A DNA stretch of 64,000 bases, taken from NCBI GenBank assembly GCA_025093985.1, contig JACAAK010000004.1:3472001-3536000 (forward strand). Direction: 5' to 3'. Source of the DNA: Calvatia gigantea (taxonomy: Eukaryota > Basidiomycota > Agaricomycetes > Agaricales > Lycoperdaceae). The position numbers and the translations under genes are program-made. Below, one piece after another: positions 2,485 through 31,925 of this stretch. The stretch's first letter is position 1, and every line of letters starts with the position of its first letter. The notes beneath the pieces are model-generated. The model was given only the letters and a program-made list of their open reading frames with translations, ran no database searches and was not told the origin of the DNA.

Positions 2485-3783
2485 ATGTGAGTTATCTATG
2501 ATTTGAAATATTCTTTCTGTTACTAACTTATTACTTAGGGATCCACCACCACCACCAGCTGGAGATGTAGATGTTTCAGAACACAGAGATATCATCCTAC
2601 GCCTTCAAACTGGTCGGTTACAAAGAATCAGCAACTTATCCCACTCATATTCCCCACTCCATTATGTATTGCTGTTTCCCTATGGTGACTCTGGTTGGCA
2701 TACCAATCTACCAGCACAGCCAGGAGTTGGCAATAATCCAAGGTCCAAAAAGGTTACCCAAAGATGTTATTATGCCTACCGCTTTCACATCAGACCTGGA
2801 CCTCAGCCACCACTGTTTTGGGCTGGCAAATTGTTCCAGCAGTTTTTGGTTGATGCTTGGGCCTCTATTGAGCAGAGTAACCTCCACTGGTATAGGACTC
2901 ATCAAAAGGAGATTAGAGCTGAGGTTTACCAAGGCCTTCAGGATGCAGCTGTTGGAGATAGGGATGAAAACCTCAACTTGGCAAATTATGGTCAAAGAGT
3001 TATTCTACCTGCCTCTCATGTTGGAAGTGAACGTTACATGAACCAACTTTTCCAAGATTCTATGGCTATCTGTAGGGCATTTGGGAAACCAGACATCTTC
3101 TTGACAATGACTGCCAACCCCAATTGGCCTGAAGTACAGGAGGCATTATTGGTCAACAGGAATGATGGCAGGACCAAACAGGCATCTACAGATCGTGCTG
3201 AAATTGTGGCCAGAGTTTTCCAGGAGAAGAAGAAAGCACTACTCAAAGAAGTCAAGGATGGTCTATTTGGTACAGCTGTGGCAATGGTACACACCATAGA
3301 GTTCCAGAAAAGAGGATTACCTCACATGCACCTCTTGATTTGGGTTGAAAACCTAGACAAAATCAGAGATAGCCTGCATGTTGACTCTATGGTGTCTGCA
3401 AAAATCCCAGATCCTGTCACTGAACCTCACCTGCATAGAGTGGTTACATCCATGATGCTCCATGGTCCATGTGGTCCTGATCATCCCAATGCCAAGTGTA
3501 TGGTGAATGGAAAATGTAGCAAAGGATTTCCCAAAGAATTCAGGCCTACAACACTATATGGAGAAGATGGATATCCCAAATATGCCAGACCTAATGATGG
3601 ACGCACTTTTGTCAAGAATGGCTTCACCTATGACAACAGGAGAGTTGTGGCTTACAATGCTTATCTCAGCTCAAAGTATGGATGTCACATCAATGTTGAA
3701 ATCTGTGCATCTATTGAGTCTGTGAAGTATGTCCACAAATATCTCTACAAAGGCCATGATAGGACAACTCTGGAGATATCAGC
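2485..3783 (+). CDS. Helitron RepHel protein, 5' part (Rep/HUH nuclease)
   Basis: N-terminal half of the Helitron rolling-circle transposase. The reading frame is open from the splice acceptor at 2538 to the LTR insertion at 3783. A possible start codon is split by an intron: AT at 2485-2486, donor GTGAGT at 2487, acceptor TAG at 2536-2538, then G, giving MDPPPPP. The Helitron-like N domain shows the two-His metal site in RGLPHMHLLIW and the two-tyrosine motif in KYVHKYLYKG, the residues that nick and covalently hold DNA. The frame continues at 12688. The total without the LTR element and one TSD copy is 3573 nt, exactly 1191 codons including stop. The protein would act in the nucleus on its own element. 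The insertion should prevent production of a full-length transposase unless the LTR element is removed. Confidence 0.8.
3779..3783. repeat. Target-site duplication TCAGC, left of LTR element A
   Basis: TCAGC at 3779-3783 is repeated at 12683-12687, immediately after the right LTR. A 5 bp duplication is normal for LTR-element integrase. Removing one copy together with the element restores the Helitron frame. Confidence 0.92.
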
Positions 3784-4328
3784 TGTTGAATCTCGCCCTG
3801 TACCACTACGTTGGTTCAGTCTATTTATAGCTGAAACGGGGTTTGAGTATTTCACCTTCAGAGGGTCGATAATAACGGACCATCACAGACTACGTACGCA
3901 GTAGTTGTACCGCCCTTTAGGTAGTCGGTTATACCCTCCGCATGGAACCTTCTAGTACATGCGTCGTACACAGTATGCTCCAATTATGCTACTGGTAGTT
4001 AGACCTCACCCGTATAAGGGTTTAGAGTGCACAGACCAGGGATATTAGTATATATACCCTTATGTAGCATTGTAGTATGTACGCTCTTATGCAATGCCTT
4101 TTGGCATAAGACACTATGTCTTCTTTCCTCTACGCTAGCTTCACTAAGCATCGCTTCCCCTCTCCTTAAGACTCTCTGAGTACGCTGGTATAAGCAGGAC
4201 TATGTCCGCTACCACGCGCCTCTCCTACTGGACCGTCTCCCGGATGAATACGACTACCCTCCACCGCTGACGCCTACACGCTTAGGTAGTGTGAACTTAT
4301 ATTGGGGTGTCTACTCGTTCTCTCAACA
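3784..4328 (+). repeat. 5' LTR of element A
   Basis: 545 bp, TG...CA ends, nearly identical to 12138-12682. It shares its first ~100 bp and its 3' part with the 556 bp LTRs of copy B but differs in the middle, so A and B are related subfamilies. Confidence 0.93.
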
Positions 4329-4346
4329 GGTTATGGGCCCCGACCG
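4329..4346 (+). other. Putative primer-binding site of element A
   Basis: The stretch directly after the LTR starts GGTTATGGGCCCC and is identical in copy B (24111 onward). It differs at one position from GGTTATGAGCCC, the complement of the fungal initiator tRNA-Met anticodon stem-loop used by half-tRNA-primed Copia elements. The match is by eye and from memory of the tRNA. Confidence 0.5.
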
Positions 4347-7300
4347 CCGCTCACTCGGACCGCGTTAGCAACGCTGGTAGAGTTTGAGGAGGCTACGGTC
4401 GCTTTCAACCTGGGAGACAGTGGTGCCTTTGGTCCACTTGATACCCTGTCTGACCCATGTTGTGAACGCGTGCACTACGCACAGCAGTCCTACATGATGC
4501 TGACACGTTGTTACCCGTTCTTGGTTTTTGATCTGGCAAACCGTCATCTCCGGTCCGGTTCGACCGCTTTAGGTCTGCTCTCCATTCTGGGTCGCAGCAG
4601 AACTGTTCTGCTCTGGTTGCTCCACCTCTGTTCTGGTATCCTCTCTAATCGACGACGACACTTTGGGCTTTCTGGGATTCTCTTCAGATCCACCTCAGTA
4701 ATTTACTATATGATGTATCATCTACGCTGAGCACAATGCTCCGCTTTGCTGGTAAATTAGCTGGTCTTCATGACCGCAATAAATACCGCAGTGTCAGGCA
4801 AATTATAAGCCTTGTGTTCTTGTGTTCCAAGTCGATTGGGCAAGTCCTGCCTTGAGTAGAATAACACACCACGAGCATATACCTGAGCTATTTGACCCAC
4901 TTAAGCTGGCAGTTACAAGCCGCTAAGGCCCGCTTAATCGAATAAAGCTGGGATATATAAAACATCTTTGAGAGGTCCACCGTTCGTTCCTTTGCTTTAG
5001 GCTTCAACGCTTTACCTCTTCCACGTCTATTCGACTACCGCTTTACTCTTTCTACGGATAGCTCACGCGCTAAAAAGCGCTTTATGCCATGCTAAGGCAG
5101 TGAGCCGCCGCATTTGCAGCGCTTAAAGTTGCAGCAGCACTTGCAGCATTCGCAAAAATATCCAAAGAAGATAGCAAGGAGAAGAACGCTAATTGCGTCC
5201 TTGCAGCTGGGAAATAAGGGGAGAAGGATAATGAGCTGGTAATACCGCCATTATGTCGTTTCAGGAAATATTTCAGAATATAGTTCAAACATGCCGCTGG
5301 CTCGAGCGACTGCCGCCATATACTATTTCTCTTATAGAGGAGCTGCGTCGCTATATATCGCGCCCTGCTTCTAGCATCGATGTTCCTTCACTTGTGTTAA
5401 GCGCAAGTCCACGCGCCCAAGTTAGAAGACCTGTTTTAAGTCAGAGCATGGACGAGCAGATTAAAATGCTTTGTCCGCCAACTACAGGAATAACAATGAT
5501 TGCTTTAAGGAAGTTTGACTTCATGGAAGTCGCCGTCCATTATTAGGACTTAAGCACACCATTTAGCAACTATAATTGAGAAAGAGGATGAGTATAGCAC
5601 CATACGATGCAACACGCCGACGAATTCCTTAAGAAATCCTTTAGACTGCTCTTTACGGAGCTTGGCGCCGGAGGAGTTCTTGTGTCGCCATCTTCGGATG
5701 TCGCTGACCTTGATAACCAATGGATGGATATACGGTAGTACTTTCGACTTCATACTCCTTGATAAATGCTACGGAATAACGGTGTGCCGCGTGAGATGTA
5801 AGCGCTGGCTATAAATCCTTTTCTACGCAACAAGTGAGAAATCCTTATGGATCAAATGAAGATGATAGCGGGAGCATGTCGCTCTATTCACTTGAGAAGA
5901 ATATCCCTTATAGGATCTCGTGAATCGCATCATTACAAAGAAAGGAAATTACGACACGTCTAGGAATTAGCAGAATAGCTCCCAACGTATAACGGTTGAG
6001 CTTCAGCACTATGTCACCAGAATTAATTCTTAGACCTCGCCGCTTTACATTAGGCTTGAGGCAAGAAACTGGAATCCTATGGGAACGACAAGTATCTGAA
6101 CTGCTTTCATATTCCAGCATTAGTCTACGACATTAGGGATGAAAGATTTGTAGCGCCACATTAGTGTGCGGCCGATCTATATCGAGAAAATCTTATAACG
6201 TATGTCCTCGAGTGTAATACTTTTGAGGCAATCGTTAAAAGTCACCACCTTTGCAATAAGTCATGCAGAGCTGTATTAGTTCACCCAATCTCATCGTTGT
6301 ACACGAACTTGCGATTATAAGCAAGGAGATGAATGGTAGTTGAACATTACGCCTACTAGACTACATCGTTTGACAACATCGAACAGAACTTCCCATGATT
6401 ATGCCTTCTTCACTCGTCTTTTACGACTTGTCGAGATGATTGCATTATTTCATCGCCACTCTGGATTATTTCACAAGGGAAATTGCATCAGTACCTTTAT
6501 CCAGAACGCTTTATACGAATATCCTCGTCCTCGAGCATAATACTCGGACTTGATGGAATTGCTAGTCGTCTATTACGACACTACTCTATGACTTCTTATC
6601 TCATGATGATAGTTGTCCTCCTTTGAAAGAAGTTATGAGGCTCTAAGATTCATTAGAGAAACCTCTACAGTATAGCTGACAATGGCCAATGTCGCAACTG
6701 ATTATGGAGGAGAGTTAGTCTAAACGAGAGCAATAGCAAATATTCGTGGCATGAATAACCCACTTAAACCTCCTACTCCCAATGCTTTCGCAACGGTTGA
6801 AGTAGAGAGACTGATCCACACTACACTTTGAGAGCCTAAAAGCTTTACGGCAACGGGAATGTCTTACCCGTCTCAGTGATAGTTTAAGCGTTGACTAGAG
6901 CATAACGTGCCAGTCCAAGCATTTATAGTGGAAGACACTTAATCGTGTAAATCAAGGGATAAATCATTAATTTGATTCTGTACTGTGGGTTTGGCTTCGC
7001 GGCGCATCAGTTAACATGATGACCGCCCAAACATGATCGCTTATTCAAGATGTAACATACCTCGATCGTTTGATCAACGAGAACTTTCGAGTTCAAGCGG
7101 CACACAGAAAGGCTTAACGTTCTACGAACAATCCACTTTTGGATGCCTTACTCGATGAGGGAATATACCCTTAAAATGTCATGATTCAGGAACTGGATAG
7201 CAGTAAAACCAGTTCATTTGCAAAGAAGAGAGCAAAACCTGCACGAAGCAAGAGATAGCACTTTCTTTATCCACCATCTTTAGATGTCGCAGGATATATT

Positions 7301-8566
7301 CCATTACACTCCACAATCACCTCCTGATTCCTTTCCATTTCCATTCGAGAAATCTCCGCCCACCATGTCCTATGTCTTACGCTGACATATTCGCCAATTT
7401 GATGCATTATTTGCGCATTCCTTACAGGATATCTACCGCTTTTGACACACCACACTTCTGTGTCGCCACTTAGGTGGTACGACCGTTGTGGAGGAGTTAT
7501 AGAATAAAAACGCTGGTTGATACGCATTGCACAATTGAACCTGACTAGGAAAGACCGCACTATTCATTACGCGGGTCACCTACAGGAAGACTATAATGGA
7601 TTAGGCGTTCAATTTCAAGAAGAACTCGTTTGGACTCACCGACTAGAGTTAGACAAGCATAAGACTTGCTAAGCGTTCACGCTAGCGTCTACCAGAAAAG
7701 CGCATCAGCTCGGATAGATCATCCTAAAAATATGTGATGGTTATACCTCCATATGAGCTTTCGCCTCGCATAGCTTAACAAACTTGCGAGAAAATTCTTT
7801 TATTTCTGGAATTGCATCGATAATGATCCGCCATTAATAATGCACGTTGACATTTAAATCGAAAAACACTCGTCGCTGAGGGAGGAGTACAGTAAAACAA
7901 GTTCTTAATCGCTGGTGAATAACCGCATACGATTAAAGCTTTCAATAGCTACACTTCGCTGGTCCGTCTTAATTGATGTGCGCCGTGGTGGTTCGTAACA
8001 TGATAAACACTCTCTAAGCCCTAAAAAGCGATATGATTGAGTAACATGTATTAGGAAACTTAACATGCTGAAAAGCATGGAGGAGAGCTACGAATACAGT
8101 ATTCTTACTCCAAATCCGATGACCACCCCATCCTGCGCTTCACGGCAAAGGAAACTTCATTAAGTTGAAGGTATCGCTTTTGTGATTCAATTCTCCAGTT
8201 ATCCGCGCATGTGAGAAATGCTTAGCGTTGATGACAAAACTGCTTTTGCAGACTGGATGAGAAGATACACTGGAATAATCTGACGGGCTTCGGCTTACCA
8301 GATAAGAAAAGAAACTGAATGACACCAGACGAGCACTATAGGTGTTACGTGGAAGGAATCTCCAATCCTTGATTGAGCTGGACTTCAATCCGCCTTCAAC
8401 GCGATTATGCTGGATTTTATCCGCATTTTCCAAAACCACTTCGTCAACCTCGCTTTGACAATAAAGTCTAACGGATCCACAATTAGCTGGCTCGAGTGGC
8501 TGCCGCAATGCGATGCAACTAGCTGGCTCGAGTGACTGCCGCAACATGATACTGATTCCTACGTCA
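4347..8566. other. Internal non-coding region of element A, rich in short hairpins
   Basis: There is no supportable gene. Many short palindromes are visible, for example CATC-ttcg-GATG near 5694, TCTAA...TTAGA near 6636, ACGGG...CCCGT near 6852, AACTGG...CCAGTT near 7192, CCAC-tta-GGTGG near 7448, CATGC...GCATG near 8064 and GAATACAGTATTC near 8089. A 21 bp motif of the form GCTGGCTCGAGTGACTGCCGC recurs near 5294, 8488 and 8522, with variants after the captured segment (11599, 11660). The same layout is kept in copy B (24129-28364). Confidence 0.6.
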
Positions 8567-9260
8567 TCGCGAGCCCTCCTCTTTGGAGTTGATGGGGAAA
8601 ACACAAAGGATATGATATTCCTTTCCGCCTTCATACGAAGACGCTTGGATAAATATATTAGGTTTAGAAATATTCCTTTCCGCCACAGTCGCTGGAAAAA
8701 TATATTCATAGGACTTTCAATTGTTCCTATCGCCTCTTACAAGTCGCTGATAAAACAACTGGGGAGTTATCCCCGCCGACGTCTCATTACGAGCGTCTTA
8801 GGCAAAAATAACATTAGGAAATTATTCCTTCCTCCTCTAACGAGCTGTAGGAGAAAATATTATAAGGTTTACGCTTTTACCTTTCCACCTCTTACGAGCT
8901 CTTGGATAAAATAAATCAGGAACATATTCCTTCATACTCGATCAAGAGTCAACTGCAAAAATATGGCAGGAACTTATTCCTTTCGCAAGACAAAAATAAG
9001 ATAGGGTCTAACGATCCTTTCTCTCTTTTACAAGATTGAGGAAAAACTTCATAGGTTTTGAATGTAACCTTCCGCCTCTTCGTGAGTCTACGGTAAAACA
9101 TCTATATGGAATTTATCCATCCGCCTCAAATTGAGAGTCTGGAAAAATATAGGGTCAACTTCAAGACCCCTCCACCTCTTCGGAGTTGTATAGAAAAACA
9201 AATAAGGGACTTAATCGTTCCTCCCTCCTTTTCGGAGTTGATGGGAAATAACAAAAAGTG
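8567..9260. repeat. Degenerate hairpin-repeat array in element A
   Basis: About 13 head-to-tail units of roughly 50-60 bp. Each unit has an AT-rich hairpin of the type AGGAA-nnnn-TTCCT followed by a second hairpin in a CCnCCTC...GAGnnnnnGG context. The stems differ between units but still pair: AAAGGA/TCCTTT (8605-8624), GGGG/CCCC (8761-8774), AGGAA/TTCCT (8816-8829), AAGGT/ACCTT (8864-8883), AGGTT/AACCT (about 9053-9070), TGGA/TCCA (about 9109-9120), GGGTC/GACCC (about 9151-9168). The second hairpins vary likewise: CTTC/GAAG (8629-8640), CTCCT/AGGAG (8832-8853), ACTC/GAGT (8936-8949). Copy B keeps the array at 28365-29062. Confidence 0.8.
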
Positions 9261-9368
9261 TGTATGCATTCCTTGGGACTGAATCCTTAATCCGCATCGG
9301 CCGAAACGCCTTTTGCATGGAGGAAAATTGCATGAGACCACTTCCATTTGCGAATCCATTTATTTGGA

Positions 9369-11565
9369 CAGGTTGACCAAGGCAAGAACACTGACATCCG
9401 TATTCCTCCCAACAACAATCCTGTCACCGACGTTCAACTCCAAGGACATAACTTGCAACGTCAACGGCCTCTCTGGGTCTTCAGTCAGCACCGCAACAAT
9501 TGCAGCTGGTACCACCCTCACGTTCGTACCAACATCTCACCACATCGCCTCCTCTAACTCACGAACTTATGAACAGCTTCGAATGGCACCAGCACGACCA
9601 ACGTACAGGTGAAGACCCTCTTGCCGGTGGCCACAAGGGACCCATCCAGGTCTACATTGCCAAGGCTCCCTCTACTGCCGCTTCCTTCGACGGCCAGGGT
9701 GCTGTTTGGACCAAGATTTATTCTTCTGGCCTCCTCAATCCTTCGACTAGCCAATGGGGCCTCAGATGTCGTGAACTCCAACGGCGGTAATTACCACTGA
9801 GCATCTCTGGCTAACATACGAAATCCGACTGACTATGATAACAGGCAAACACTCAGTTAAAATCCCTTCTTCACTGCCTGCTGGCGATTACATTCTCCGT
9901 GCTGAACATGTGAGATATCCCCAGCTACGACCCCATACCGTGCCTTACGAAAAACTAACGCTTTAACCAAAGATTGCTCTCCACGTCGCTTCCTCCTACC
10001 CGGGTGCCCAATTCTACATTGGTTGCGCTCAGGTCAAGATTACCGGTGGAGGTAGTGCCAACCCACCCAAGATTGCCCTCCCTGGCGCTTACAAGGGCTC
10101 CGATCCCGGCATCACTGTGCGTTTTTTTTCTCTCTTCGGTGTAACTGCCCGAATTACTCGGAAGCTCACTGGCTTGAAATTCTTAGGTCAATATCTACAA
10201 CAACATCCAAAGCTATACCGCTCCTGGTGGCTCTGTTTGGACCGGTTGAACGTAACAATATCATGTTTATTTCGAATTGACCGGCTTTGGTTCCCAAATC
10301 TGTATCGTAGTGTATATCACTTTACAGTTTTATAAACATTCAACTACCTCTATGCATGTCGTGAACCCCCACGGAAACGCATAGCTAAACCTTGAAACAG
10401 GTGAACAAGTATATTTTAAGGCAGCCTCCAAAATTCTGGAGTTACCGACACGCGCAGAAAAAAAATCTTTGACCCTCACTATGTTCTTGGTTTGGACTTA
10501 TCACTAACATTCACAGGGGAAGAGTGTATCACCTCGACACCTTCGTGCCTGGAGAGAAAATGACCAGGGACGGAGAACTGGACCGGCCTGTCACCTACAT
10601 TACTTCCAAGCGGGATCGAGCGGGTTGAACATGCGATATACGGGGGGTTGGGGGGTGAGATTGATGCCAGAGGAAACCAGGCCGAAAATGGATGGTATGG
10701 TAGTACCGACTTGATGATGGAATGACGAAGAACGAGCCACACAACCTCGACGCCGGTTGAAACGTTGACACAAAGATCTACGCGCGACGTCTAGGCGCGC
10801 TTTCATCTTGACACTCTGAAGCTCTCGCGCCAACCGGCCTTTGAATTCGAAACGGATTCATCTGGAACCCTCCTCGGTTAGAAGCTTTCATTTCAATCAT
10901 ACCCTTCGCAGTCGACACACCATTTATGACTGAGCTTCGTTACATGGAGCTATAAGACTCGCAAGCTCCCTGCATCTCAGTATTAACTCCGTAGTAAGAT
11001 ACAAGGATGGAACGAATTGAAAACCAAAGAACCAGATAATAAAAACAAGAAAAAAATTGCCTGCTCCATCATGTCCTGCGTGTCGGCCGAGGGGGTATAG
11101 ATACTTAGCTGGCCTAATCTGCGTTCACTGTGTCTTAGCAATAGGTTTGCTTGTTGCGGGATAGATATGCAGAGTTCATCATCACCTTGCTTTCGCTGTG
11201 ATTCGCGGCACCATTGGAACTCACACCGAACACTTCTACTAGACATCTTCACATCATTACTCAGAACTCGATTCATCTATCACGTAGACTCCACCCAGCC
11301 GAGGGGGCGTAGTTACTTAGCCAGCCTAGTCTACGTCCACCGCGTCTTAGCTGTAGGTTTGCTTGTTGCGCACCCTGCGTCACGTGTCAATCTATAAATA
11401 GCCTCCCATGGACCAACCTCTCTTGTTTAAAATCAGCCAGCAAGCTCCGCATCTCAAAGCTTTATCAGTTTCTTTCGCAATATCAGAACATTCCTTATAT
11501 CTCCCTCAACGTACCCACATAATGCTCTGGACCATGCATCGAAACTGGTGGTAGAGCAGGCGCGA
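9369..11565 (+). other. AA9-locus segment captured inside LTR element A
   Basis: This 2.2 kb block is about 99% identical to the host AA9 locus at 21665-23554 joined to 31926-32230, that is, the locus without LTR element B. It starts at the exon 3 acceptor of the AA9 gene and ends about 1.3 kb downstream of its stop. In copy B the corresponding place (about 29167-29182) has about 15 bp of element sequence instead, so the block replaced those bases. Introns are retained, so the copy was made from DNA and not from spliced RNA. No target duplication flanks it; junction overlap is about 1 bp. Confidence 0.88.
9372..10249 (+). pseudogene. Truncated AA9 LPMO copy inside LTR element A
   Basis: Corresponds to exons 3-7 of the intact gene at 21471-22542. 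Exons 1-2, which encode the signal peptide and the N-terminal copper-binding histidine, are missing. An extra T near 9433 (GACGTTCAAC against GACGTCAAC) and an extra G in the run near 9756 break the frame. It cannot make a secreted active enzyme. The segment GGHKGP, with the second copper histidine, is still readable. Confidence 0.88.
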
Positions 11566-12123
11566 ATCAGAACAAGGCTTGTAGCATCATTGCTTCGCTG
11601 GCTCAAGTGACTGCCGCGGTTGATTGATCTACATAACTGCAAAGTGACAGCCTTGGTTACGCTGGCTTAGTACTGCCGCTTTCCTGATCTCACAATAATC
11701 GCACGCTGAATAAGCAAAAATGGTTTTTGTATTTCGCACCTACGCGGAAAAACAGACTTGTTGAACGCTTCGAAAGAATTGCCGTTTACAATTTCTGGAG
11801 GAGCCTTCTTAGGCTTTCCTACTCCTTACTCTTAGACGAAAGTCGCAGCGAGTTAGTCGCAGGAGTTCAAAGTTGAGTTAAAGAACATTTGATAGCTCAA
11901 AGCAATTGTCGTTGCGTCCTTTATGGCCATCATGGCAAACACTAGCATCAATTCCTCTCCGCTACAGGCTTCTTTCCAACTTTCAAAAGCTGGTTAAATT
12001 CCGCATGATTGTTGATGACTCCGACATTTGATGTTCGGCACTGCCGCTCTTTTGTTGAAGATTCCAATGTCTAAGTCTGGTTTCAATACCGCTAGACTAT
12101 TGAAGCGTTAATCTTCCCCCCTT

Positions 12124-12137
12124 CAAGTGAGGAGGAG
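12124..12137 (+). other. Polypurine tract of element A
   Basis: AAGTGAGGAGGAG lies just before the TG of the right LTR and is repeated identically before the right LTR of copy B (about 31352-31364). It is the expected position for the plus-strand primer. Confidence 0.65.
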
Positions 12138-12682
12138 TGTTGAATCTCGCCCCGTACCACTACGTTGGTTCAGTCTATTTATAGCTGAAATGGGGTTCGA
12201 GTATTTCACCTTCAGAGGGTCGATAATAACGGACCATCACGGACTATGTACGCAGTAGTTGTACCGCCCTTTAGGTAGTCGGTTATACCCTCCGCATGGA
12301 ACCTTCTAGTACATGCGTCGTACACAGTATGCTCCAATTATGCTACTGGTAGTTAGACCTCACCCGTATAAGGGTTTAGAGTGCACAGACCAGGGATATT
12401 AGTATATATACCCTTATGTAGCATTGTAGTATGTACGCTCTTATGCGATGCCTTTTGGCATAAGACACTATGTCTTCTTTCCTCTACGCTAGCTTCACTA
12501 AGCATCGCTTCCCCTCTCCTTAAGACTCTCTGAGTACACTGGTATAAGCAGGACTATGTCCGCTACCACGCGCCTCTCCTACTGGACCGTCTCCCGGATG
12601 AATACGACTACCCTCCACCGCTGACGCCTACACACTTAGGTAGTGTGAACTTATATTGGGGTGTCTACTCGTTCTCTCAACA
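12138..12682 (+). repeat. 3' LTR of element A
   Basis: 545 bp partner of 3784-4328. Differences seen by eye: about eight, all C/T or G/A. It is followed by TCAGC. Confidence 0.93.
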
Positions 12683-12687
12683 TCAGC

Positions 12688-15013
12688 AGGCCCAGAGCAA
12701 CAGAGAGATGAAATTAAAGAGCATGTTGACTCTCGCTATGTGTCTCCTGTTGAAGCTGTGTGGCACACTTTTGAATATTCCATGCATGAAGAGTCTCCAA
12801 CAGTTTATAGGCTGCCTATCCACTTGGAGAACCAACACTTGGTATATTTCAATCCAGAGGATAATCATGCTCAGGTCTTGGGCAGACCCAACATTGACAG
12901 GACACCACTTACAGCCTGGTTTGAGGCCAATAGACAACATCCTGAAGCTCACCACATCCTGTACCAGGACTTTCCTAAATCTTGGGTTTATGTGAAGAAG
13001 AACAAAGAGTGGAAGGTCAGGCAAAGAGGCTATGCAATTGGGAGGATGTACTTTGCATCTCCAGCTGCAGGGGAAAGGTTCTACCTTAGGATGCTTTTGA
13101 CTGTGGTCCCAGGTGCTACCTCATTTCAAGATATCAGGACATTTGAGGGCACTGTTTATGACACCTACAAGGCAGCCTGTCTTGCCAGAGGACTGTTGGA
13201 GGATGATAGGGAGTGGGCCCAATGTCTGAATGAAGCTGGAGATATGCAAACAGGGAGTTCACTTCGCCAGTTGTTTGCAGTAATCCTTCAAAACTGCTAT
13301 CCAGCTGCACCTGAAGTTCTCTGGAATGATTTTAGGGCCAAGATTTGTGATGACTTGAGGCATAGGCTAGGAAGGATCCCCCAATACAGAAACAGAGAGT
13401 TCACAGAAGAGCAAATCTATGACTATGGTTTGCATCTGTTGAATAGAATTCTTATGAATTCTGGCAAAACTCTCAGGGATTATCCACCAATGCCACTGTC
13501 TCAGGGACCAGGAGAAGAAGAGAATTGGGAGGATATTGCACAGAACTTCATGCTGGCAGAAGAGCTTGCCTATGATCCAACAGCATTGGCAGGTATGGTT
13601 GAGAGAAATACTCAATCATTCAATGTTGAACAAAGATCAGTCTATAATGCTGCCCTTGATTCAGTCAACAACAACTTGGGCAAGATGATCTTTATTCACA
13701 GTGCAGGTGGAGGTGGTAAAACCTTTGTCTGTAACACTCTTGCTGCTGCTGTCAGGTCAAGAGGTGATGTAGCACTTTGTGTTGCCTCCTCAGGTATTGC
13801 TGCACTACTGCTTGAAGGTGGAAGAACTGCACATTCAAGATTCAAGATACCAATTCCTGCAGATGAAACATCAGTAGCATCTATCAAGCGCAATTCTCAG
13901 ATGCATAGAGTCCTGGAGAAAACCAAAATCATTATCTGGGATGAAGTACCCATGCAACACAGACATAGCATCAAATCTGTTGACAGGAGTCTCAGGGACT
14001 TGCTTCAAGATGACAGATTCTTTGGTGGAATTACAGTTGTATTTGGAGGTGACTTTCGCCAAACACTTCCTGTAGTTCCAAGAGGGTCAAGACAGGAAAT
14101 TATTGCAGCATCTCTGTGCAGGAGTGAGCTCTGGAGAGCCACAGAAGTCCACTACTTGGTGCAAAACATGAGATTGGATAGGACACCAGAAAGTGATCGT
14201 CATGCTGCATGGTTACTGGAAATTGGGGCAGGAACAAACTTGAATGCTGAAGAAACAGTTGAAATCCCTCCAGAAATGCACTGTGCAGATATGGATGGTC
14301 TTATTGGGTCAATTTATCCAGATATTGGACAAGGCAACAAAGGGGATCAATATTTCTTGGACAGGACAATACTTTCTTCCAGGAATGATGAAGTGGATGA
14401 CATCAATGAAACCATTCTTGGGAAGTTTCCAGGGAACCCACATATTCTTATGGGTGCTGATTCTATAGAGCTGGCAGACCAAGTGATGAATGGATATCAG
14501 CCTTATCCACCAGAGTACCTGAACTCTCTTAGGGCAAGTGGGTTGCCTTTGGCCAAGTTGGTGTTGAAGATTGGTTGTCCAGTAATGCTGCTGAGGAACT
14601 TGGACCCATCAAAGGGACTGTGTAATGGAACAAGAATGGTGGTGACAGATATCAAGAGGAGGGTACTGGAGTGTAGGATCATTTCTGGAGACAGGAGATA
14701 TGCAGGAAGTACAGTGCTGATTCCAAGGATCATACTACAGCCATCAGCTGAAACACTGCCAATCCCATTGAAGCACAGACAATTCCCTGTTCGACTTGCA
14801 TTTGCAATGACAATCAACAAGTCTCAAGGGCAGTCAGTAAAACATGTTGGGATTAATCTGCAGACTTCAGTGTTTTCACATGGGCAGTTGTATGTGGGAT
14901 TATCTCGGTGTACATCAGGAGAAAGGATCAAGGTGGTGTTGCCTGAGCAAAATGAACACACAAAGACTATGAATGTAGTATACAAAGAAGTACTTGGTGG
15001 ACTTAGACTGTAA
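12688..15013 (+). CDS. Helitron RepHel protein, 3' part (PIF1-family helicase)
   Basis: C-terminal half of the Helitron transposase and continuation of the frame broken at 3783. The read-through frame from 12656 begins in the LTR, so that start is not genuine. The SF1B/PIF1 helicase motifs are all present: Walker A SAGGGGKTF, motif II IIWDEVPM, motif III GGDFRQTLPVV, and the C-terminal TINKSQGQS and YVGLSRCTS. The frame is open to TAA at 15011-15013, with no frameshift or stop. The helicase unwinds DNA during rolling-circle transposition. Apart from the LTR insertion the gene looks intact, so the Helitron was probably recently active. Confidence 0.9.
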
Positions 15014-21470: not shown

Positions 21471-22542
21471 ATGAAATTAGCTCTCGCAATTCTGTCCATA
21501 GTGGCACTCGCCAGTGCTCACCGTGCGTTTCTTTCTCCGATGCTGATTTGCTGAAGGAGTTGACAAACGTTCCCAAGATACCATGCAATACCTCTGGATC
21601 AATAACGTGAATATTCTCTGAAATATGTTATCCCTGATACAGTGTGCTTATCAACGTTTTACCACAGGTTGACCAAGGCAAGAACACTGACATCCGTATT
21701 CCTCCCAACAACAATCCTGTCACCGACGTCAACTCCAAGGACATAACTTGCAACGTCAACGGCCTCTCTGGGTCTTCAGTCAGCACCGCAACAATTGCAG
21801 CTGGTACCACCCTCACGTTCGTACCAACATCTCACCACATCGCCTCCTCTAACTCACGAACTTATGAACAGCTTCGAATGGCACCAGCACGACCAACGTA
21901 CCGGTGAAGACCCTCTTGCCGGTGGCCACAAGGGACCCATCCAGGTCTACATTGCCAAGGCTCCCTCTACTGCCGCTTCCTTCGACGGCCAGGGTGCTGT
22001 TTGGACCAAGATTTATTCTTCTGGCCTCCTCAATCCTTCGACTAGCCAATGGGCCTCAGATGTCGTGAACTCCAACGGCGGTAATTACCACTGAGCATCT
22101 CTGGCTAACATACGAAATCCGACTGACTATGATAACAGGCAAACACTCAGTTAAAATCCCTTCTTCACTGCCTGCTGGCGATTACATTCTCCGTGCTGAA
22201 CATGTGAGATATCCCCAGCTACGACCCCATACCGTGCCTTACGAAAAACTAACGCTTTAACCAAAGATTGCTCTCCACGTCGCTTCCTCCTACCCGGGTG
22301 CCCAATTCTACATTGGTTGCGCTCAGGTCAAGATTACCGGTGGAGGTAGTGCCAACCCACCCAAGATTGCCCTCCCTGGCGCTTACAAGGGCTCCGATCC
22401 CGGCATCACTGTGCGTTTTTTTCTCTCTTCGGTGTAACTGCCCGAATTACCCGGAAGCTCACTGGCTTGAAATTCTTAGGTCAATATCTACAACAACATC
22501 CAAAGCTATACCGCTCCTGGTGGCTCTGTTTGGACCGGTTGA
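21471..22542 (+). CDS. AA9 lytic polysaccharide monooxygenase
   Basis: Seven exons: 21471-21522, 21578-21606, 21668-21816, 21872-22080, 22139-22203, 22267-22410, 22480-22542, giving 236 aa. The signal peptide [16 protein letters not shown] is followed by His17, the N-terminal copper ligand after cleavage, in [11 protein letters not shown]. The second ligand lies in GGHKGP, and the buried Gln/Tyr pair in [11 protein letters not shown]. The C-terminus PGGSVWTG is typical of single-domain AA9; there is no CBM1. The secreted enzyme oxidatively cleaves cellulose or related glucans using copper and a reductant or peroxide. Exon 3 uses a GTTCGT donor, as does the paralogue at 35219. A TATA box is at 21422. 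Exons 3-7 plus downstream DNA were copied into LTR element A. LTR element B inserted about 1 kb downstream of the stop. Confidence 0.93.
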
Positions 22543-23549
22543 ACGTAACAATATCATGTTTATTTCGAATTGACCGGCTTTGGTTCCCAAATCTGTATCG
22601 TAGTGTATATCACTTTTACAGTTTTATAAACATTCAACTACCTCTATGCATGTCGTGAACCCCCCACGGAAACGCATAGCTAAACCTTGAAACAGGTGAA
22701 CAAGTATATTTTAAGGCAGCCTCCAAAATTCTCGAGTTACCGACACGCGCAAAAAAAAAATCTTTGACCCTCACTATGTTCTTGGTTTGGACTTATCACT
22801 AACATTCACAGGGGAAGAGTGTATCACCTCGACACCTTCGTGCCTGGAGAGAAAATGACCAGGGACGGAGAACTGGACCGGCCTGTCACCTACATTACTT
22901 CCAAGCGGGATCGACGGGTTGAACATGCGATATACGGGGGGTTGGGGGGTGAGATTGATGCCAGAGGAAACCAGGCCGAAAATGGATGGTATGGTAGTAC
23001 CGACTTGATGATGGAATGACGAAGAACGAGCCGCACAACCTCGACGCCGGTTGAAACGTTGACACAAAGATCTACGCGCGACGTCTAGGCGCGCTTTCAT
23101 CTTGACACTCTGAAGCTCTCGCGCCAACCGGCCTTTGAATTCGAAACGGATTTATCTGGAACCCTCCTCGGTTAGAAGCTTTCATTTCAATCATACCCTT
23201 CGCAGTCGACACACCATTTATGACTGAGCTTCGTTACATGGAGTTATAAGACTCGCAAGCTCCCTGCATCTCAGTATTAACTCCGTAGTAAGATACAAGG
23301 ATGGAACCAATTGAAAACCAAAGAACCAGATAATAAAAACAAGAAAAAAATTGCCTGCTCCATCATGTCCTGCGTGTCGGCCGAGGGGGCATAGATACTT
23401 AGCTGGCCTAATCTGCGTTCACTGTGTCTTAGCAATAGGTTTGCTTGTTGCGGGATAGATATGCAGAGTTCATCATCACCTTGCTTTCGCTGTGATTCGC
23501 GGCACCATTGGAACTCACACCGAACACTTCTACTAGACATCTTCACATC
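22543..23549. other. AA9 3' flank
   Basis: Duplicate of 10250-11251 inside element A (about 99% identical). A plus-strand frame at 22819-23019 follows a CACAG acceptor-like site and is kept in both copies except for a frame-breaking GAGC/GAC difference near 10617. I do not recognise it and cannot call it a gene. Confidence 0.5.
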
Positions 23550-23554
23550 ATTAC
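23550..23554. repeat. Target-site duplication ATTAC, left of LTR element B
   Basis: ATTAC at 23550-23554 and again at 31921-31925. The captured copy in element A shows the empty site CATCATTACTCAGAAC at about 11249-11264 with one ATTAC. Confidence 0.95.
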
Positions 23555-24110
23555 TGTTGAATCTCGCTCCGTACCACTACGTTGGTTCAGTCTATTTATA
23601 GCTGAAACGGGGTTCGAGTATTTCACCTTCAGAGGGTCGATAATAACGGACACTATTATGGACTACGCATGTAGGATACCGCACTGTAAGTAGCAGGTAA
23701 ATACTACGCATGGAACCTTCTAGTACATGCGGACATGCACAGTATGCACACATTATGCTACTGGTAGTTAGACCTCACCCGTATAAGGGTTTAGAGTGCA
23801 CAGACCAGGGACTAATAGTATATAACACCTATGTAGATTCCCTGTATGTAATCCTTTTGGGTAATCCCTTTGGGTACGCCTTTTGGCGTAAGACACTATG
23901 TCTTCTATCCTCTACGCTAGCTTCTCTAAGCATCGCTTCCCCTCTCCTCAAGACTCTCTGAGTACGATGGTATAAGCAGGACTATGTCCGCTACCATGCG
24001 CCTCTCCTACTGGACCGTCTCCCGGATGAATACGACTACCCTCCACCGCTGACGCCTACACGCTTAGGTAGTGTGAACTTATATTGGGATGTCTACTCGT
24101 TCTCTCAACA
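23555..24110 (+). repeat. 5' LTR of element B
   Basis: 556 bp, TGTTGA...CAACA, followed by the same putative primer-binding site as element A. Its middle part differs from the LTR of A (for example an extra CCTTTTGGG-type repeat near 23862). A plus frame inside (23710-23961) is a by-product. Confidence 0.94.
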
Positions 24111-27100
24111 GGTTATGGGCCCCGACCGCCGCTCACTCGGACCGCGTTAGCACGCTGGTAGAGTTTGAGGAGGCTACGGTCGCTTTCAACCTGGGAGACA
24201 GTGGTGCCTTTGGTCCACTTGATACCCTGTCTGACCCATGTTGTGAACGCGTGCACTACGCACAGCAGTCCTACATGATGCTGACACGTTGTTACCCGTT
24301 CTTGGTTTTTGTCTGGCAAACCGTCATCTCCGGTCTGGTTCGACCGCTTTAGGTCCGCTCCCCATTCAGGGTTGCAGCAGAACTGTTCCGCTCTGGTTGC
24401 TCCACCTCTGTTCTGGTATTCTCTCTCTGATCGACGACAACGCTTTGGGCTTTTTGGGATTCTCTTCAGATCCGCCTCAGTAATTTACTATATGATGTAT
24501 CATCTACGCTGAGCACTATGCTCCGCTTTGCTGGTAAATTAGCTGGTCTTTGTGACCGCAATAAAACCGCAGTGTCAGGCAAATTATAAGCCTTGTGTTC
24601 TTGTGTTTCAAGTCGACTGGGCAAGTCCCGCCTTGAGTAGAATAACACACCACGAGCATATACCTGAGCTATTTGACCCACTTAAGCTGGCAGCTATAAG
24701 CCGCTAAGGCCCGCTTAATCAAATAAAGCTGGGATATAGAAAATATCTTTGAGAAGTCCGCCGTTCGTTTCTTCACTTTAGGCTTCAACGCTTTACCCTT
24801 TCCACGTCTATTCGACTACCGCTTTATTCTTTCCACGGATAGCTCACGCGCTAAAAGCGCTTTATGCCATGCTAAGGCAGTGAGCCACTACATTTGCAGC
24901 GCTTAAGTTGCAGCAGCATTTGTGGCATTCGCAAAAATATCCAAAGAAGATAGCAAGGAAAAGAGCGCTAATCGCGTCCTTGCAGCTGGGAAATAAAGGG
25001 AGAAGAATAATGAGCTGGTAATACCGCCATTATGTCGTTTCAGGAAATACTTCAGAATATAGTTTAAATATGCCGCTGGCTCGAGCGATTGCCGCCATAT
25101 ACTATTTCTCTTATAGAGGAGCCGCGTCGCTATATATCGCGCCCTGCTTCTAGCATCAAACGTCCCTTCACTTGTGTTAAGCGCATGTCTACGCGCCCAA
25201 GTTTGAAGACCTGTTTTAAGTCAGAGCATGGACGAGCACGTTAAAATGCTTTGTCCGCCAACTACAGGAAAACAATGATTGCTTTAAGGAAGTTTGACTT
25301 TATGGTAGTCACCGTCCATAATTAGGATTCGAGCGCACCATTTAGCAACTATAATTGAGAAAGAGGATGTGTTTAGCACCATACGATGCAATGCGTCAAC
25401 GAATTCCTTAAGAAATCCTTTAGACCGCTCTTCACGGAGCTTGGCGCCGGAGGAGTTCTTGTGTCGCCATCTTCAGATGTTGCTGACCTTGATACCAATG
25501 GATGGATATACGGTAGTACTTTCGACTTCATACTCCTTGATAAATACTACGAATAACGGTGTGCCGCGTGAGATGTAAGCGCTGGCTATAAATCCTTTTC
25601 TATGCAACAAGTGAGAAATCCTTGCGGGTTATATGAAGATGATAGCGGGAGCATGTCGCTCTATTCACTTGAGAAGAATATCCTTTACAGGATCTCGTGA
25701 ATCGCATCATTATAAAGAAAGGAAATTACGACACGTCTAGGAATTAGCAGAAAAGCTCCCAACGTATAACGGTTGAGCTTCAGCACTATGTCACCAGATT
25801 TAATTCTTAGACCTCGCCGCTTTATATTAGGCTTGAGGCAAGAAAACTGGAATCCTTCGGGAAAAGACAAGTATCTGAACTGCTTTCATATTCCAGCATT
25901 AGTCTATGACATTAGGGATGAAAGATTTGTAGCGCCACATTAGTGTGCGGCCGATCTATATCGAGAAAATCTTATAACGTATGTCCTCGAGTGTAATACT
26001 TTTGAGGCAATCGTTAAAGGTCACCACCTTTGCAATAAGTCATGCAGAGCTGTATTCGTTCACCCAATCTCATCGTTGTACACGAACTTGCAATTATAAG
26101 CAAGGAGATGAATGGTAGTTGAACATTACGCCTACTAGACTATATCGTTTGACATCATCGAACAGAACTTCCCAAGATTATGCCTTCTTCACTCGTCTTT
26201 TATGACTTGTCGAGATGATTGCATTATTTCATCGCCACTCTGGATTATTCCACAAGGGAAATTGCATCAGTACCTTTATCCAGAATTCTTTATACGAATA
26301 TCCTCGTCCTTGAGCATAATACTCGGACTTGATGGAATTGCTAGTCGTCTATTACGACGCTACTCTATGACCTCTCATCTCATGATGATAGTTGTCCTCC
26401 TTCGAAAGAAGTTATGAGGCTCTAAGATTCATTAGAGAAACCTCTACAGTATAGCTGACAATGGCCAATGTCGCGACTGATTATGGAGGAGAGTTTGTCT
26501 AAATGAGAGCAATAGCAAATATTCGTGGCATGAATAACCCACTCAAACTTCCTACTCCCAATGCATTCGCAACGGTTGATGTAGAAAGACTGATCCGCAC
26601 TACACTTTGAGAGCCTAAAAGCTTTATGGCAACGGGAATGTCTTACCCGTCTCAGTGATAGTTGGCGTTGACTAGAGCGTAACACGCCAGTCTAAGCGTT
26701 TATAGTGGAAGACACTTAACTGTGTAAATCAAGGGATAAACCATTAATTTGGTTCTGTACTGTGGGTTTGGCTTTGCGGCGCATCAGTTAACATGATGAC
26801 CGCCCAAACATGATCGCTTATTCGGGATGTAACATACCTCGATCGTCTAATTAACGAGAACCTTCGAGTTCAAGCGGCACACAGAAAGGCTTAACGTTCT
26901 ACGAACAATCCACATTTGGATGCCTTACTCGATGAGGGAATATACCCTTAAACGTCATGATTCAGTAACTGGATAGCAGTAAAACCAGTTCATTTGCAAA
27001 GAAGAGAGCAAAACCTGCACGAAGCAAGAGATAGCAATTTCTTTATCCGCCATCTTTTGATGTCGCAGGATATATTCCATTAAACTCCACGATCACCTCC

Positions 27101-28364
27101 TGATTCCTTTCCATTTCCATTCGAGAAATCTCCGCCCATCATATCCTATGTCTTACGCTGACATATTCGCCAATTTGATGCATAATATGCGCATCCTTTA
27201 TAGGTTTTCTACCGCTTAAAAAGGCTTGTAGTATCATTGCTCCGCCGGCTCAAGTGACTGCCGCGGCTAAATTGATCTACATAACCGTAAAAAGTGACGG
27301 CCTTAGAAACGCTGGTTAAAACGCATTGCACAATTGAACCTGACTAGGAAAGACCGCACTGTTCATTACGTGGGTCACCTACAGGAAGACTATAATGGAT
27401 TAGGCGTTCAATTTCAAGAAGAACTCGTTTGGACTCACCGACTAGGGTTAGACAAGCATAAGACATACTACGCGTTCACGCTAGTGTCTACCAGAAAAGC
27501 GCAACAGCTCGGATAAATCATCCTAAAAATATGTGATGGTTATACCTCCATATGAGCCTTCGCCTCGCATAGCTTAACAAACTTGCGAGAAAATTCTTTT
27601 ATTTCTGGAATTGCATCGATAATGATCCGCCATTAACAATGCGCGTTGACATTTAAATCGAAAAATACTTGTCGCTGAGGGAGGAGTACAGTAAAACAAG
27701 TTCTTAATCGCTGGTGAATAACCGCATACGATTAAAGCTTTCAATAGCTACACTTCGCCGGTCCGTCTTAATTGATGTGCGCCGCGGTGGTTCGTAACAT
27801 GATAAACACTCTCTGAGCCCTAAAAAGCAATATGATTGAGTAACATGTATTAGGAAACTTAACATGCTGAAAAGCATGGAGGAGAACAACGGATACAGTA
27901 TCCTTACTCCAAATCCGATGACCGCCTTATCCTGCGCTTCACAGCAAAGGAACTTCATTAAGTTGAAGGTATCGCTTTTGTGATTTAATTCTCCAGTTAT
28001 CCGCGCATGTGAGAAATGCTTAGCGTTGATGACAAAACTGCTTTTGCAGACTGGATGAGAAGTTACACTGGAATAATCTGACGGGCTTCGGCTTACCAGA
28101 TAAGAATAGAGTTTGAATGACACCAGACGAGCACTATACGTGTTACGTGGAAGGAATCTTTAATCCTTGATTGAGCAGGATTTAATCCGCCTTCATGCGA
28201 TTACGCTGGATTTCATCCGCATTTTCCAAAACCACTTCGTCGACCTCGCTTTGGCAATAAAGTCTAACGGATCCGCAACTAGCTGGCTCGAGTGACTGCC
28301 GTGAATGCGATTGTAACTAGCTGGCTCGAGTGACTGCCGCAATATGATACCGATTCCTACGTCA

Positions 28365-29062
28365 TCGCGAGCCCTCCTCTTTAGAGTTGATGGGGAAAAC
28401 ATAAAGGATATGATATTCCTTTCCGCCTTCATACGAAGACGCTTGGATAAAAATATTAGGTGTAGAAATATTCCTTTCCGCCACAGTCGCTGGAAAAATA
28501 TATTCAGAGGACTTTCAATTGTTCCCATCGCCTCTCGCGAGCCGCTGATAAAACAATGGGGAGTTATCCCCGCCGACGTCTCAAGACGAGCGTCTTAGGC
28601 AAAAATAACATTAGGAAATTATTCCTTCCTCCTCTAACGAGCTGCAGGAGAAAATATTATAAGGTTTATACTTTTACCTTTCCACCTCTTATGAGTTGTT
28701 GGATAAAATAAATCAGGAACATATTCCTTCATACTCGTTCAAGAGTCGACTGTAAAAATATGGCAGGAACTTATTCCTTTCGCAAGATAAAAATATGATA
28801 GGGTTTAACGATCCTTTCTCTCTTTAACAAGATTGAGGAAAAACTTCATAGGTTTTGAATGTAACCTTCCGCCTCTTCGTGAGTCTACGGTAAAACATCT
28901 ACATGGAATTTATCCATCCGCCTCAAATCGAGAGTCCGGAAAAATATACAGGGTCAATTTCAAGATCCTTCCACCTCTTCGGAGTAGTATGGAAAAACAA
29001 ATAAGGAACCTAATCGTTCCTCCCTCCTTTTCGGAGTTGATGGGAAATAACAAAAAGTGTGT
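28365..29062. repeat. Degenerate hairpin-repeat array in element B
   Basis: Counterpart of 8567-9260 in element A. Most stems are unchanged. Several differences from A keep pairing by wobble, for example AGGGTC/GATCCT near 28949-28968, where A has GGGTC/GACCC. The GGGG/CCCC stem near 28558-28572 and the paired GACG/CGTC stem are retained. Confidence 0.78.
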
Positions 29063-29472
29063 ATGCATTCCTTGGGACTAGATCCTTAACCCGCATCGGC
29101 CAAAACGCCTTTTGCATGGAGGAAAATTGCATGAGACCACTTCCATTTGCGAATCCATTAATTTGGAGTTTGTTTGAGTTAAATCAGAACAAGGCTTGTA
29201 GCATCATTGCTTCGCCGGCTCATGTGACTGCCGCGGTTGATTGATCTACATAACCGCAAAGTGACGGCCTTGGTTACGCTGGCTTAGTACTGCCGCTTTC
29301 CTGATCTCACAAAAATCGCATGCTGAATAAGCAAAAATGGTTTTTGTATTTCGCACCTACGCGGAAAAACAGACTTGTTGAACGCTTCGAAAGAATTGCT
29401 GTTTACAATTTCTGGAGGAGCCTTTTTAGGCTTTCCTACTCCTTACTCTTAGACGAAAGTCGCAGCGAGTTA

Positions 29473-29686: not shown

Positions 29687-29710
29687 AAATTTATATACAA
29701 AATGGGTATT

Positions 29711-30784: not shown

Positions 30785-30868
30785 TTATACATCACCCTAC
30801 ATGGTCACATGATTTTATTTGTATTTATTTGATTGCAATAAACGAAGTCATGTGCTCAGAATTTGAGA

Positions 30869-31077: not shown

Positions 31078-31364
31078 TAGTCGCGGGAGTTCAAAAGTTG
31101 AGTTAAAGGATATTTGATAGCTCAAAGCAATTGTCGTTGCGTCCTTTATGGCCATCATAAGCAAAAGCTAGCATCAATTCCTCTACGCTACAGGAATGCT
31201 TTTCCAACCTTCAAAAGCTGGTTAATTCCGCATGATTGTTGATGACTCCGACATTTGATGTTCGGCACTGCCGCTCTTTTGTTGAAGATTCCAATGTCTA
31301 AGTCTGGTTTCAATACCGCTAGAATATTGAAGCGTTAATCTTCCCCCCTTCAAGTGAGGAGGAG

Positions 31365-31920
31365 TGTTGAATCTCGCTCCGTACCACTACGTTGGTTCAG
31401 TCTATTTATAGCTGAAACGGGGTTCGAGTATTTCACCTTCAGAGGGTCGATAATAACGGACACTATTATGGACTACGCATGTAGGATACCGCACTGTAAG
31501 TAGCAGGTAAATACTACGCATGGAACCTTCTAGTACATGCGGACATGCACAGTATGCACACATTATGCTACTGGTAGTTAGACCTCACCCGTATAAGGGT
31601 TTAGAGTGCACAGACCAGGGACTAATAGTATATAACACCTATGTAGATTCCCTGTATGTAATCCTTTTGGGTAATCCCTTTGGGTACGCCTTTTGGCGTA
31701 AGACACTATGTCTTCTATCCTCTACGCTAGCTTCTCTAAGCATCGCTTCCCCTCTCCTCAAGACTCTCTGAGTACGATGGTATAAGCAGGACTATGTCCG
31801 CTACCATGCGCCTCTCCTACTGGACCGTCTCCCGGATGAATACGACTACCCTCCACCACTGACGCCTACACGCTTAGGTAGTGTGAACTTATATTGGGAT
31901 GTCTACTCGTTCTCTCAACA
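31365..31920 (+). repeat. 3' LTR of element B
   Basis: 556 bp, differing from 23555-24110 at one site (CCACCACTG against CCACCGCTG). Preceded by the purine tract and followed by ATTAC. Confidence 0.94.
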
Positions 31921-31925
31921 ATTAC

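Follow-up and report, generated by a model that had tools for sequence, protein, structure and literature searches.

Introduction

Long terminal repeat (LTR) retrotransposons that are without genes and live on a relative are known as the LARD type, and for such elements in barley a conserved RNA structure has reportedly been suggested. Elements of the TRIM type are very short, below about 4 kb, retrozymes are non-coding LTR elements, and BARE2 and Dasheng/RIRE2 are dead in gag or pol and live on an autonomous relative. Among packaged RNAs, that of MS2 is said to carry many packaging-signal stem-loops dispersed along its length. A primer binding site (PBS) directed against the anticodon arm of tRNA-Met is of the copia type. 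In Ty1, a packaging signal is proposed in the 5′ part of the RNA and Gag is described as binding RNA with little specificity (PMC8396678). In the satellite virus STNV, it is the loop of the hairpins that is recognised, the stem being indifferent (PMC3593212).

We analysed a 64,000-nt stretch of the Calvatia gigantea genome (hereafter the window) that contains two copies, A and B, of an LTR element with an internal array of small twin hairpins; all evidence is computational and comes from this one genome. Like LARD elements, they have full LTRs, a PBS, a purine tract, a long gene-less internal region whose ends are common with an autonomous element, and many copies; unlike them, their internal region is dead gag-pol that can be traced to a helper within the same genome, and it holds a repeated twin-hairpin array with conserved stems. 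Termini and leader are shared with the helper and the frames are dead, as in BARE2 and Dasheng/RIRE2, but here the dead pol is ~44% diverged and yet keeps colinear hairpins, one type of which is amplified. The internal region, 5375–5651 nt in the 17 loci spanned from LTR to LTR, is above the size of TRIM elements. Retrozymes are likewise non-coding, but the present element is much longer, contains dead gag-pol, and gave no hammerhead ribozyme in an Rfam search of 3700–12800 at E ≤ 5.

Like STNV RNA, which is packaged by a protein shell (PMC3593212), the element carries many short hairpins of one type, but with conserved stems and free loops. The repeated hairpins have a common core, as expected of dispersed packaging signals, and binding to a capsid is putative. 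The element resembles Ty1 in its copia type, its initiator tRNA-Met primer and a structured 5′ end; the excerpts on Ty1, however, place the signals in the 5′ part and make no mention of an internal hairpin array (PMC8396678, PMC9503155). Among open-licence PMC papers, we found no description of a conserved twin-hairpin array that replaces reverse transcriptase (RT) code and has forerunners in the RNA of a helper.

Results

The host element and its copies

Both elements of the window are full LTR retrotransposons, each flanked by a perfect 5-bp target duplication:

3784..4328, + strand: 5′ LTR of copy A, with TCAGC at 3779–3783
12138..12682, + strand: 3′ LTR of copy A, with TCAGC at 12683–12687
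23555..24110, + strand: 5′ LTR of copy B, with ATTAC at 23550–23554
31365..31920, + strand: 3′ LTR of copy B, with ATTAC at 31921–31925
24111..24124, + strand: PBS, complementary over 14 nt to the tRNA-Met anticodon arm encoded by three genomic genes

From their type, we take these three genes to be initiator tRNAs. Perfect 5-bp duplications were found in 15 of 17 copies, and many copies are young, since their LTR pairs differ at only 0–16 positions. The LTRs follow the TG...CA rule: the 5′ LTR starts with TGTTGA in 14 of the 15 loci listed (the piece for L013 is incomplete), and the LTR ends with TCAACA in all 15. A 22-mer of the array unit u7 has 107 genomic matches within 3 mismatches. Whole-element statistics were computed on 17 of 20 long loci together with A and B up to their inserts, L014, L018 and L025 being left out for inserts or a missing end.

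The longest ATG open reading frame measures 84–189 aa in 19 copies (A and B covered in part), and Pfam gave no match in the six frames of 24111–28400 (X at stops) nor in one frame of copy A. Of a gag-pol in copia order, the element holds dead homologous sequence only. It had been described as coding-free from the letters alone, which is right in that no open frame exceeds 189 aa, but the sequence is that of a dead gag-pol.

Copy A holds ~2.2 kb of host DNA (9368–11565), >99% identical to the flanks of copy B joined without B (21664–23555 plus 31921–32231); this insert presumably includes an AA9/LPMO-like gene, i.e. a gene copied into a retrotransposon. Copy B is broken at 29471–31079 by a transposon that we take to be of Tc1/mariner-like type; its inverted ends measure 214 bp (98%), and it has a single 357-aa frame (29711–30784, minus strand). 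It was recently active, because the same insert is present at >99% identity in L014 and L025. A stretch of ~98 bp occurs twice in copy B at 87% identity (27218–27315 and 29188–29282), and 27218–27315 exists among the copies in two very dissimilar forms, as though segments had been swapped between or within elements. Elsewhere in the window, 38757–43789 is a duplicated host stretch (85–95% identity) adjoining inverted repeats, and two tRNA-Ser (CGA) genes, 47208–47295 and 57683–57768, lie in opposite orientation and are 98% identical.

Helper element and descent

The pattern of LTR end plus PBS occurs 307 times in the genome at ≤3 mismatches, and some of these sites, whose LTR end differs slightly, lie ~4.5 kb upstream of an RVT_2 match (7 such pairs, assigned from coordinates). 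The helper is a relative in the same genome with copia gag, integrase and RVT_2 domains and with RVT_2 frames of up to about 1930–1980 aa, so that the gene-less element does have a relative that makes particles. Three stretches relate the two elements:

24111..24297, + strand: leader common to element and helper, up to the gag start codon (84–85% identical over 24091–24297); least variable stretch of the element
25738..28216 (ends approximate), + strand: dead pol (profile hits with E down to 3e-52; ~56% identity), colinear with the pol of the helper
31287..31364, + strand: 3′ end common with the helper, comprising the end of the pol frame, stop codon and purine-rich tract

The shared 3′ end extends from the last pol codons through the purine tract, and 49 bp of it are 86% identical between helper and dead element. 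A profile built from the dead copies aligns colinearly with part of helper gag (E = 1.6e-11, with a low-complexity bias of 22) and with most of pol (E to 3e-52); as controls, the reversed sequence gave no hit and a shuffled one a single hit at E = 2. Over 2429 aligned pol nucleotides, identity is 55.6%, against 42.6% in one shuffled control. From the colinear gag-pol matches, the shared leader and the shared 3′ end, we conclude that the element is made of dead gag-pol: judged by sequence homology, it is a protein-dead, colinear descendant of a Ty1/copia helper with long gag-pol frames in the same genome. Given its young copies, it is presumably mobilised in trans by the helper. Note that helper gag folds more stably than its dead counterpart (mean z −2.1 vs −0.5). 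In the leader (24111–24310), private variants amount to 0.029 per non-CpG column, vs ~0.14 in the rest of the element.

Architecture of the hairpin array

In copy A, the array proper (8574–9245) is composed of 13 units, u1 to u13, and a leading half unit, u0, in agreement with the tandem array of about 13 units reported from the sequence:

8567..9260, + strand: hairpin array of copy A (u0–u13)
28365..29062, + strand: hairpin array of copy B
8574..8597, + strand: u0, H2-type half unit, CCC-TC-CTC..GAG-tt-GA-t-GGG
8606..8649, + strand: u1, twin hairpin, seed of model R1
8660..8697, + strand: u2, twin hairpin, H2 without tip helix; weak match to the second model
8708..8751, + strand: u3, twin hairpin; weak match to model R1
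8761..8803, + strand: u4, twin hairpin, GCC-GACG/CGTC-GGC; found by neither model in the window
8816..8852, + strand: u5, twin hairpin
8864..8906, + strand: u6, twin hairpin
8918..8955, + strand: u7, H1 and tip helix only
8968..8989, + strand: u8, H1 only; weak match to the second model
9003..9044, + strand: u9, twin hairpin
9053..9093, + strand: u10, twin hairpin
9107..9143, + strand: u11, twin hairpin
9152..9194, + strand: u12, twin hairpin, seed of model R1
9205..9245, + strand: u13, twin hairpin, seed of model R1

The units u1–u13 are 37–44 nt long (u8, 22 nt) and are separated by A-rich spacers of 8–13 nt; other copies were consulted in annotating u6, u10 and u12. In most of the 13, a simple hairpin, H1, directly abuts a doubly bulged hairpin, H2, which is followed by the A-rich spacer. 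The H1 consensus is mostly AGGNN...NNCCT. H2 consists of three short helices set apart by two bulges on the 3′ side, in the commonest form TCC/GGA, then GC/GC, then CTC/GAG. The description of two short hairpins per unit therefore applies to most units, but not to u7 and u8, which are without most of H2, nor to the half unit u0; the second hairpin exists as well, but with two 3′-side bulges and a third helix that the first listing had left out. The same array is kept in copy B (28372–29044) at 94% identity to A, as had been stated.

Folding and paired change between units

With the pairing span limited to ≤25 nt, the array of A folds with z = −6.0 and that of B with −4.5 relative to 60 dinucleotide shuffles, compared with −0.4 and −2.5 for two other stretches of copy B and 0.1 for one host stretch. 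Unrestricted folding of the array gives z = −1.8 only, indicating that it is rich in small hairpins and not in overall stability. Over 120-nt windows of the element, the minimum free energy has a mean z of −0.53, i.e. no general excess of structure.

The sequence-only reading had held that stem bases change on both arms together from unit to unit, and two analyses bear this out. The 5′ halves of hairpins pair better with their own 3′ halves than with swapped ones (H1, p = 2e-4 by permutation; H2, 0 of 20,000 permutations match the own-half pairing), the unit set being used without the three spacer bases between u2 and u3. When 76 unit hits (66 of them distinct) from 8 copies were aligned by structure, 98.1% of cells were paired, and covariation scored 0.365 vs 0.184 after shuffling (0/500 as high), with the proviso that this alignment was fitted to the structure and that units are repeated across copies, which makes its cells non-independent events. 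Further pair types are no more numerous than in shuffles (18 vs 17.8). A first MAFFT alignment of the mixed units was poor and was replaced by another one.

A covariance model, R1, built from three unit types (u1, u12 and u13; 10 sequences), recovers, always on the + strand, 8 of the remaining 11 unit types of the window and misses u2, u4 and u8. Its 31 window hits at E ≤ 10 comprise 18 in the two arrays and 13 others, all with E ≥ 2.7, than which three array hits (E 4.1–7) are no better. The second model, R2, finds u2 and u8 weakly, together with two weak minus-strand array hits (E 1.2 and 3.8). Rfam at gathering score gave, over the whole window, two tRNAs elsewhere only and, at E ≤ 5 over 3700–12800, no family.

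Variation among genomic copies

Array variation was scored in 40 copies out of 125 candidates, 15 older ones (L070–L084) being added separately. Ten of 17 copies, with ≤3 LTR mismatches, were classed as young (A, L013, L016, L019, L020, L027 and L028 were dropped). In these, the variable non-CpG columns number 9/290 in stems, 43/175 in loops and 16/134 in spacers (stem vs loop, p = 2e-12), and columns with transversions 1/290 in stems vs 18/175 in loops; among CpG columns, 5/38 vary in stems vs 23/34 in loops. When the stem and loop labels were shifted circularly round the array, 0 of 671 shifts did as well as the real labels. This contrast in young copies indicates that stems are held during replication of the element. 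Over all 40 copies, non-CpG variants common to at least 3 copies fall in 5/290 stem, 39/180 loop and 15/135 spacer columns, the 5 stem columns standing against 58.9 expected from dinucleotide-matched unpaired columns. As a separate observation, in the hairpin loops of 8574–9245 (40 copies, non-CpG) shared C/T variants occur in 23 of 111 pyrimidine columns and A/G variants in 4 of 69 purine columns; deamination or editing of loops that are single-stranded might lie behind this asymmetry between strands.

Among copies the stems are held unchanged, pair-keeping G-U changes being about as common as pair-breaking A-C ones; over the element, private non-CpG changes lean to A-C (131 vs 93 G-U). We therefore do not claim covariation for the array at the level of copies, since wobble-type changes are no commoner than pair-breaking ones. 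The older copies L070–L084 decay at CpG sites with hardly any compensation. Pair-keeping double changes affect, in raw counts, 54 pair types over the element, 4 of which lie in the array; most of them are at CpG sites, confined to one copy or within a single exchanged segment. Copies A and B differ at 7 stem, 22 loop and 6 spacer positions; the claim that several of these differences preserve pairing by wobble is right for 3 of the 7 stem differences, which pair in both copies, but the other 4 break a pair (3 in A, 1 in B).

Selection on strand, or on RNA as opposed to DNA, is not readable from variation among the array copies. The proposed selection for structure gains from the stems held in young copies and from the covarying units, but stems hardly vary among genomic copies, and the lack of excess covariation that had been named beforehand as counter-evidence is partly found among them; stem conservation and paired change from unit to unit speak for structure. 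Over the whole element, too, predicted-paired columns vary less than others, with odds ratios of 0.52–0.62 outside and 0.10–0.49 inside the array.

Position of the array and twin hairpins of the helper

The pol homology of the dead element runs to ~28216 (helper nt ~4917 after the PBS) and resumes at ~29278 (helper nt ~5304), weakly at first (E = 0.21) and then firmly (E = 4.6e-6). Between these anchors lie ~390 nt in the helper and ~1060 in the dead element, an excess of about the array length. The RVT_2 match of the helper covers nt ~4473–5196, with YVDD inside the array's interval; in this alignment of the two sequences, the array takes the place of the end of the RT domain.

At the level of nucleotide profiles, the array itself does not match the helper. 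Both unit models score in the helper within the array interval, on the coding strand at nt ~4982–5020 (R2, 20 bits, E = 0.003; R1, 18.9 bits, E = 0.0013), whereas the best unit-model score in 12 other copia pol loci (43 kb) is 10.5 bits (E = 2.1). This site reads GGGA...TCCC, then CCC-TC-CTC-aaa-GAG-TT-GA-A-GGG, which is the architecture of u0 and u13. Its letter similarity to single units is weak, 23, 10 and 62 of 1000 shuffles being as good for u0, u5 and u13, respectively, and at least 50 for the other 11 units. The array had been presented as a novel domain of LTR elements; given a single unit-like twin hairpin in helper pol RNA within the array's interval, that claim has to be amended. 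A candidate founder of the array in the pol-derived stretch 28160–28235 was rejected as it fits u1 only; u1 resembles the pol-derived sequence near 28187–28213 (0/1000 shuffles as good).

A second twin hairpin of the helper (13 bits, E = 0.1) has a single counterpart in the dead element:

27026..27070, + strand: single twin hairpin colinear, by interpolated profile match, with the helper pol twin hairpin

The H2 stems, TCC-GC-CATC/GATG-GC-GGA, are the same in both while loop and bulges differ, and H1 differs in sequence but is paired in each. At 27026–27043, the sixth H1 pair is A-U in 16 of 19 copies, G-U in 1 and G-C in 2; 5 of the 19 copies have a broken seventh pair. Across five copies of the helper, three sites (both twin hairpins and nt 4874) show 1/60 variable stem columns vs 7/39 variable open positions (p = 0.006), compared with 176/1579 over the whole piece; the sole variable stem column breaks an H1 pair in 2 of the 5 copies. 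Part of this stem conservation may come from protein constraint.

Dispersed bulged hairpins

Before the array, 4.0 kb of copy B contain 7 hairpins of the form GC-U-GG(N)...(N′)CC-GC with a bulged U, where 0.23 are expected and 200 shuffles reach 2 at most, the GC-N-GG motif having been noticed first and counted afterwards; none is found on the other strand of 24311–28364. The sites considered are:

24542..24559, + strand: bulged hairpin GC-U-GGTC/GACC-GC
24686..24704, + strand: bulged hairpin GC-U-GGC/GCC-GC
25014..25027, + strand: bulged hairpin GC-U-GGT/ACC-GC, aligned with helper gag hairpin GC-AA-GGC/GCC-GC
25075..25095, + strand: bulged hairpin aligned with helper gag hairpin GC-A-GGCAC/GTGCC-GC
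27710..27725, + strand: bulged hairpin GC-U-GGT/ACC-GC
28175..28190, + strand: bulged hairpin GC-A-GGAT/ATCC-GC, aligned with helper pol hairpin GC-U-GGG/CCC-GC
28205..28220, + strand: bulged hairpin GC-U-GGAT/ATCC-GC
28320..28340, + strand: bulged hairpin GC-U-GGC/GCC-GC
29278..29296, + strand: bulged hairpin weakly aligned (E = 0.21) with helper pol hairpin GC-U-GGCA/TGCC-GC
8377..8542, + strand: four bulged hairpins shortly preceding the array of copy A (8377, 8409, 8486, 8522)

At 11 dispersed sites, columns variable in at least 2 copies number 11/120 in stems, 2/11 in bulges and 21/69 in loops. The array H2 contains the helix of the dispersed hairpin, closed from the other side. Allowing 1–2 bulged bases of any kind, the helper coding pieces hold four such hairpins, where 0.9 are expected and 0 of 300 synonymous shuffles reach four; the other strand of the helper gives 3 matches vs these 4, and in the 12 other copia pol loci the coding strand has 2. 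Each of the four has an aligned hairpin counterpart in the dead element, at 25014, 25075, 28175 and 29278 (the last by the weak anchor), and at two sites the third base pairs have changed while remaining paired (GGC/GCC to GGT/ACC, and GGG/CCC to GGAT/ATCC).

Discussion

The reading that we place first, though tentatively and short of an even chance, is that of a dead copia element mobilised by its helper, whose kept hairpins are cis-acting and one of which was amplified, probably for uptake into helper particles. The hairpins would be cis-acting RNA elements of the copia genomic RNA, embedded in the coding sequence of the helper; they would have stayed under selection in a lineage that lost its proteins, and a pol-derived twin hairpin would have multiplied into the array. 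The likeliest benefit would be more binding sites for helper Gag or Gag-Pol, which we regard as the likeliest user because any gain in uptake directly favours a parasite. The dead RNA may thereby be compacted and taken up in competition with helper RNA, the recognised feature being, on this model, the bulged helix with its A-rich linker and not the loop. Against this reading stand the even balance of G-U and A-C changes among array copies, the H1 pairs broken in some copies at 27026–27043 and in the helper, the weak letter similarity of the helper pol site to single units, the other-strand matches to the bulged motif in the helper, and the more stable folding of helper gag.

The array would then act as an enhancer of uptake and not as the packaging signal itself; it is not essential for packaging, because the helper manages with a small number of such hairpins and lacks an array. 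As the main packaging signal, the leader common to both elements is the likelier candidate: the 5′ position of the proposed Ty1 signal and the low specificity of Ty1 Gag (PMC8396678) fit it better than the array. A bolder version, which we consider possible but doubtful, is that the helper gag-pol messenger carries a second, RNA-level code of hairpins read by particles, and that the dead element kept and multiplied this code and outcompetes the helper.

Rather unlikely in our view is that the hairpins serve architecture or stability, keeping a long untranslated RNA compact, protected or exported with no specific recognition by Gag. Neither conserved stems nor A-rich spacers require a specific ligand, and the lower variability of predicted-paired columns extends over the whole element. 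However, the element is not more stably folded than shuffles (mean z −0.53 in 120-nt windows; −1.8 for the array), and one bulged core is repeated, and lies at corresponding positions in the helper RNA, which is translated. That the hairpins bind a host protein, for export, localisation or escape from silencing, instead of a helper protein appears less probable again. A recurring bulged helix is a usual protein-binding shape, and the dispersed motif is directional, on the + strand only in 24311–28364, but no partner is indicated and no Rfam family was found at E ≤ 5 in 3700–12800.

The sequence-only reading had offered the array as a packaging or dimerisation domain. As the element's dedicated domain of this kind, the array is favoured by being the richest in short hairpins of the stretches tested, in an element without proteins of its own; the suggestion is nevertheless weakened, to the point that we judge it improbable, by the leader, which is shared with the helper and less variable than the array, by the 5′ placement of Ty1 packaging signals (PMC8396678), and by the helper pieces read, which have no array. 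Very improbable, finally, is a tandem-duplicated pol fragment without function, its hairpins a mutational by-product (e.g. of template switching that repairs imperfect palindromes): a tandem origin is likely, covariation between copies is slight and u1 does resemble 28187–28213, but bulged helices of 2–5 bp are short for palindrome repair, the spacers are conserved too, and both the transversions (1/290 stem vs 18/175 loop) and the circular label shifts (0/671) tell against it.

On the reading that we prefer, of cis-acting hairpins kept and amplified by a mobilised dead element, a protein-dead but still transposing descendant is a natural filter: what stays conserved in it should be RNA function. 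This filter points to a bulged hairpin core at the named places in the gag and pol RNA of the helper, and to an array that multiplies this core. On the bolder version with its RNA-level code, the element would be a parasite consisting of recognition hairpins, in which nature has recorded the cis-acting parts of a retrotransposon genome.
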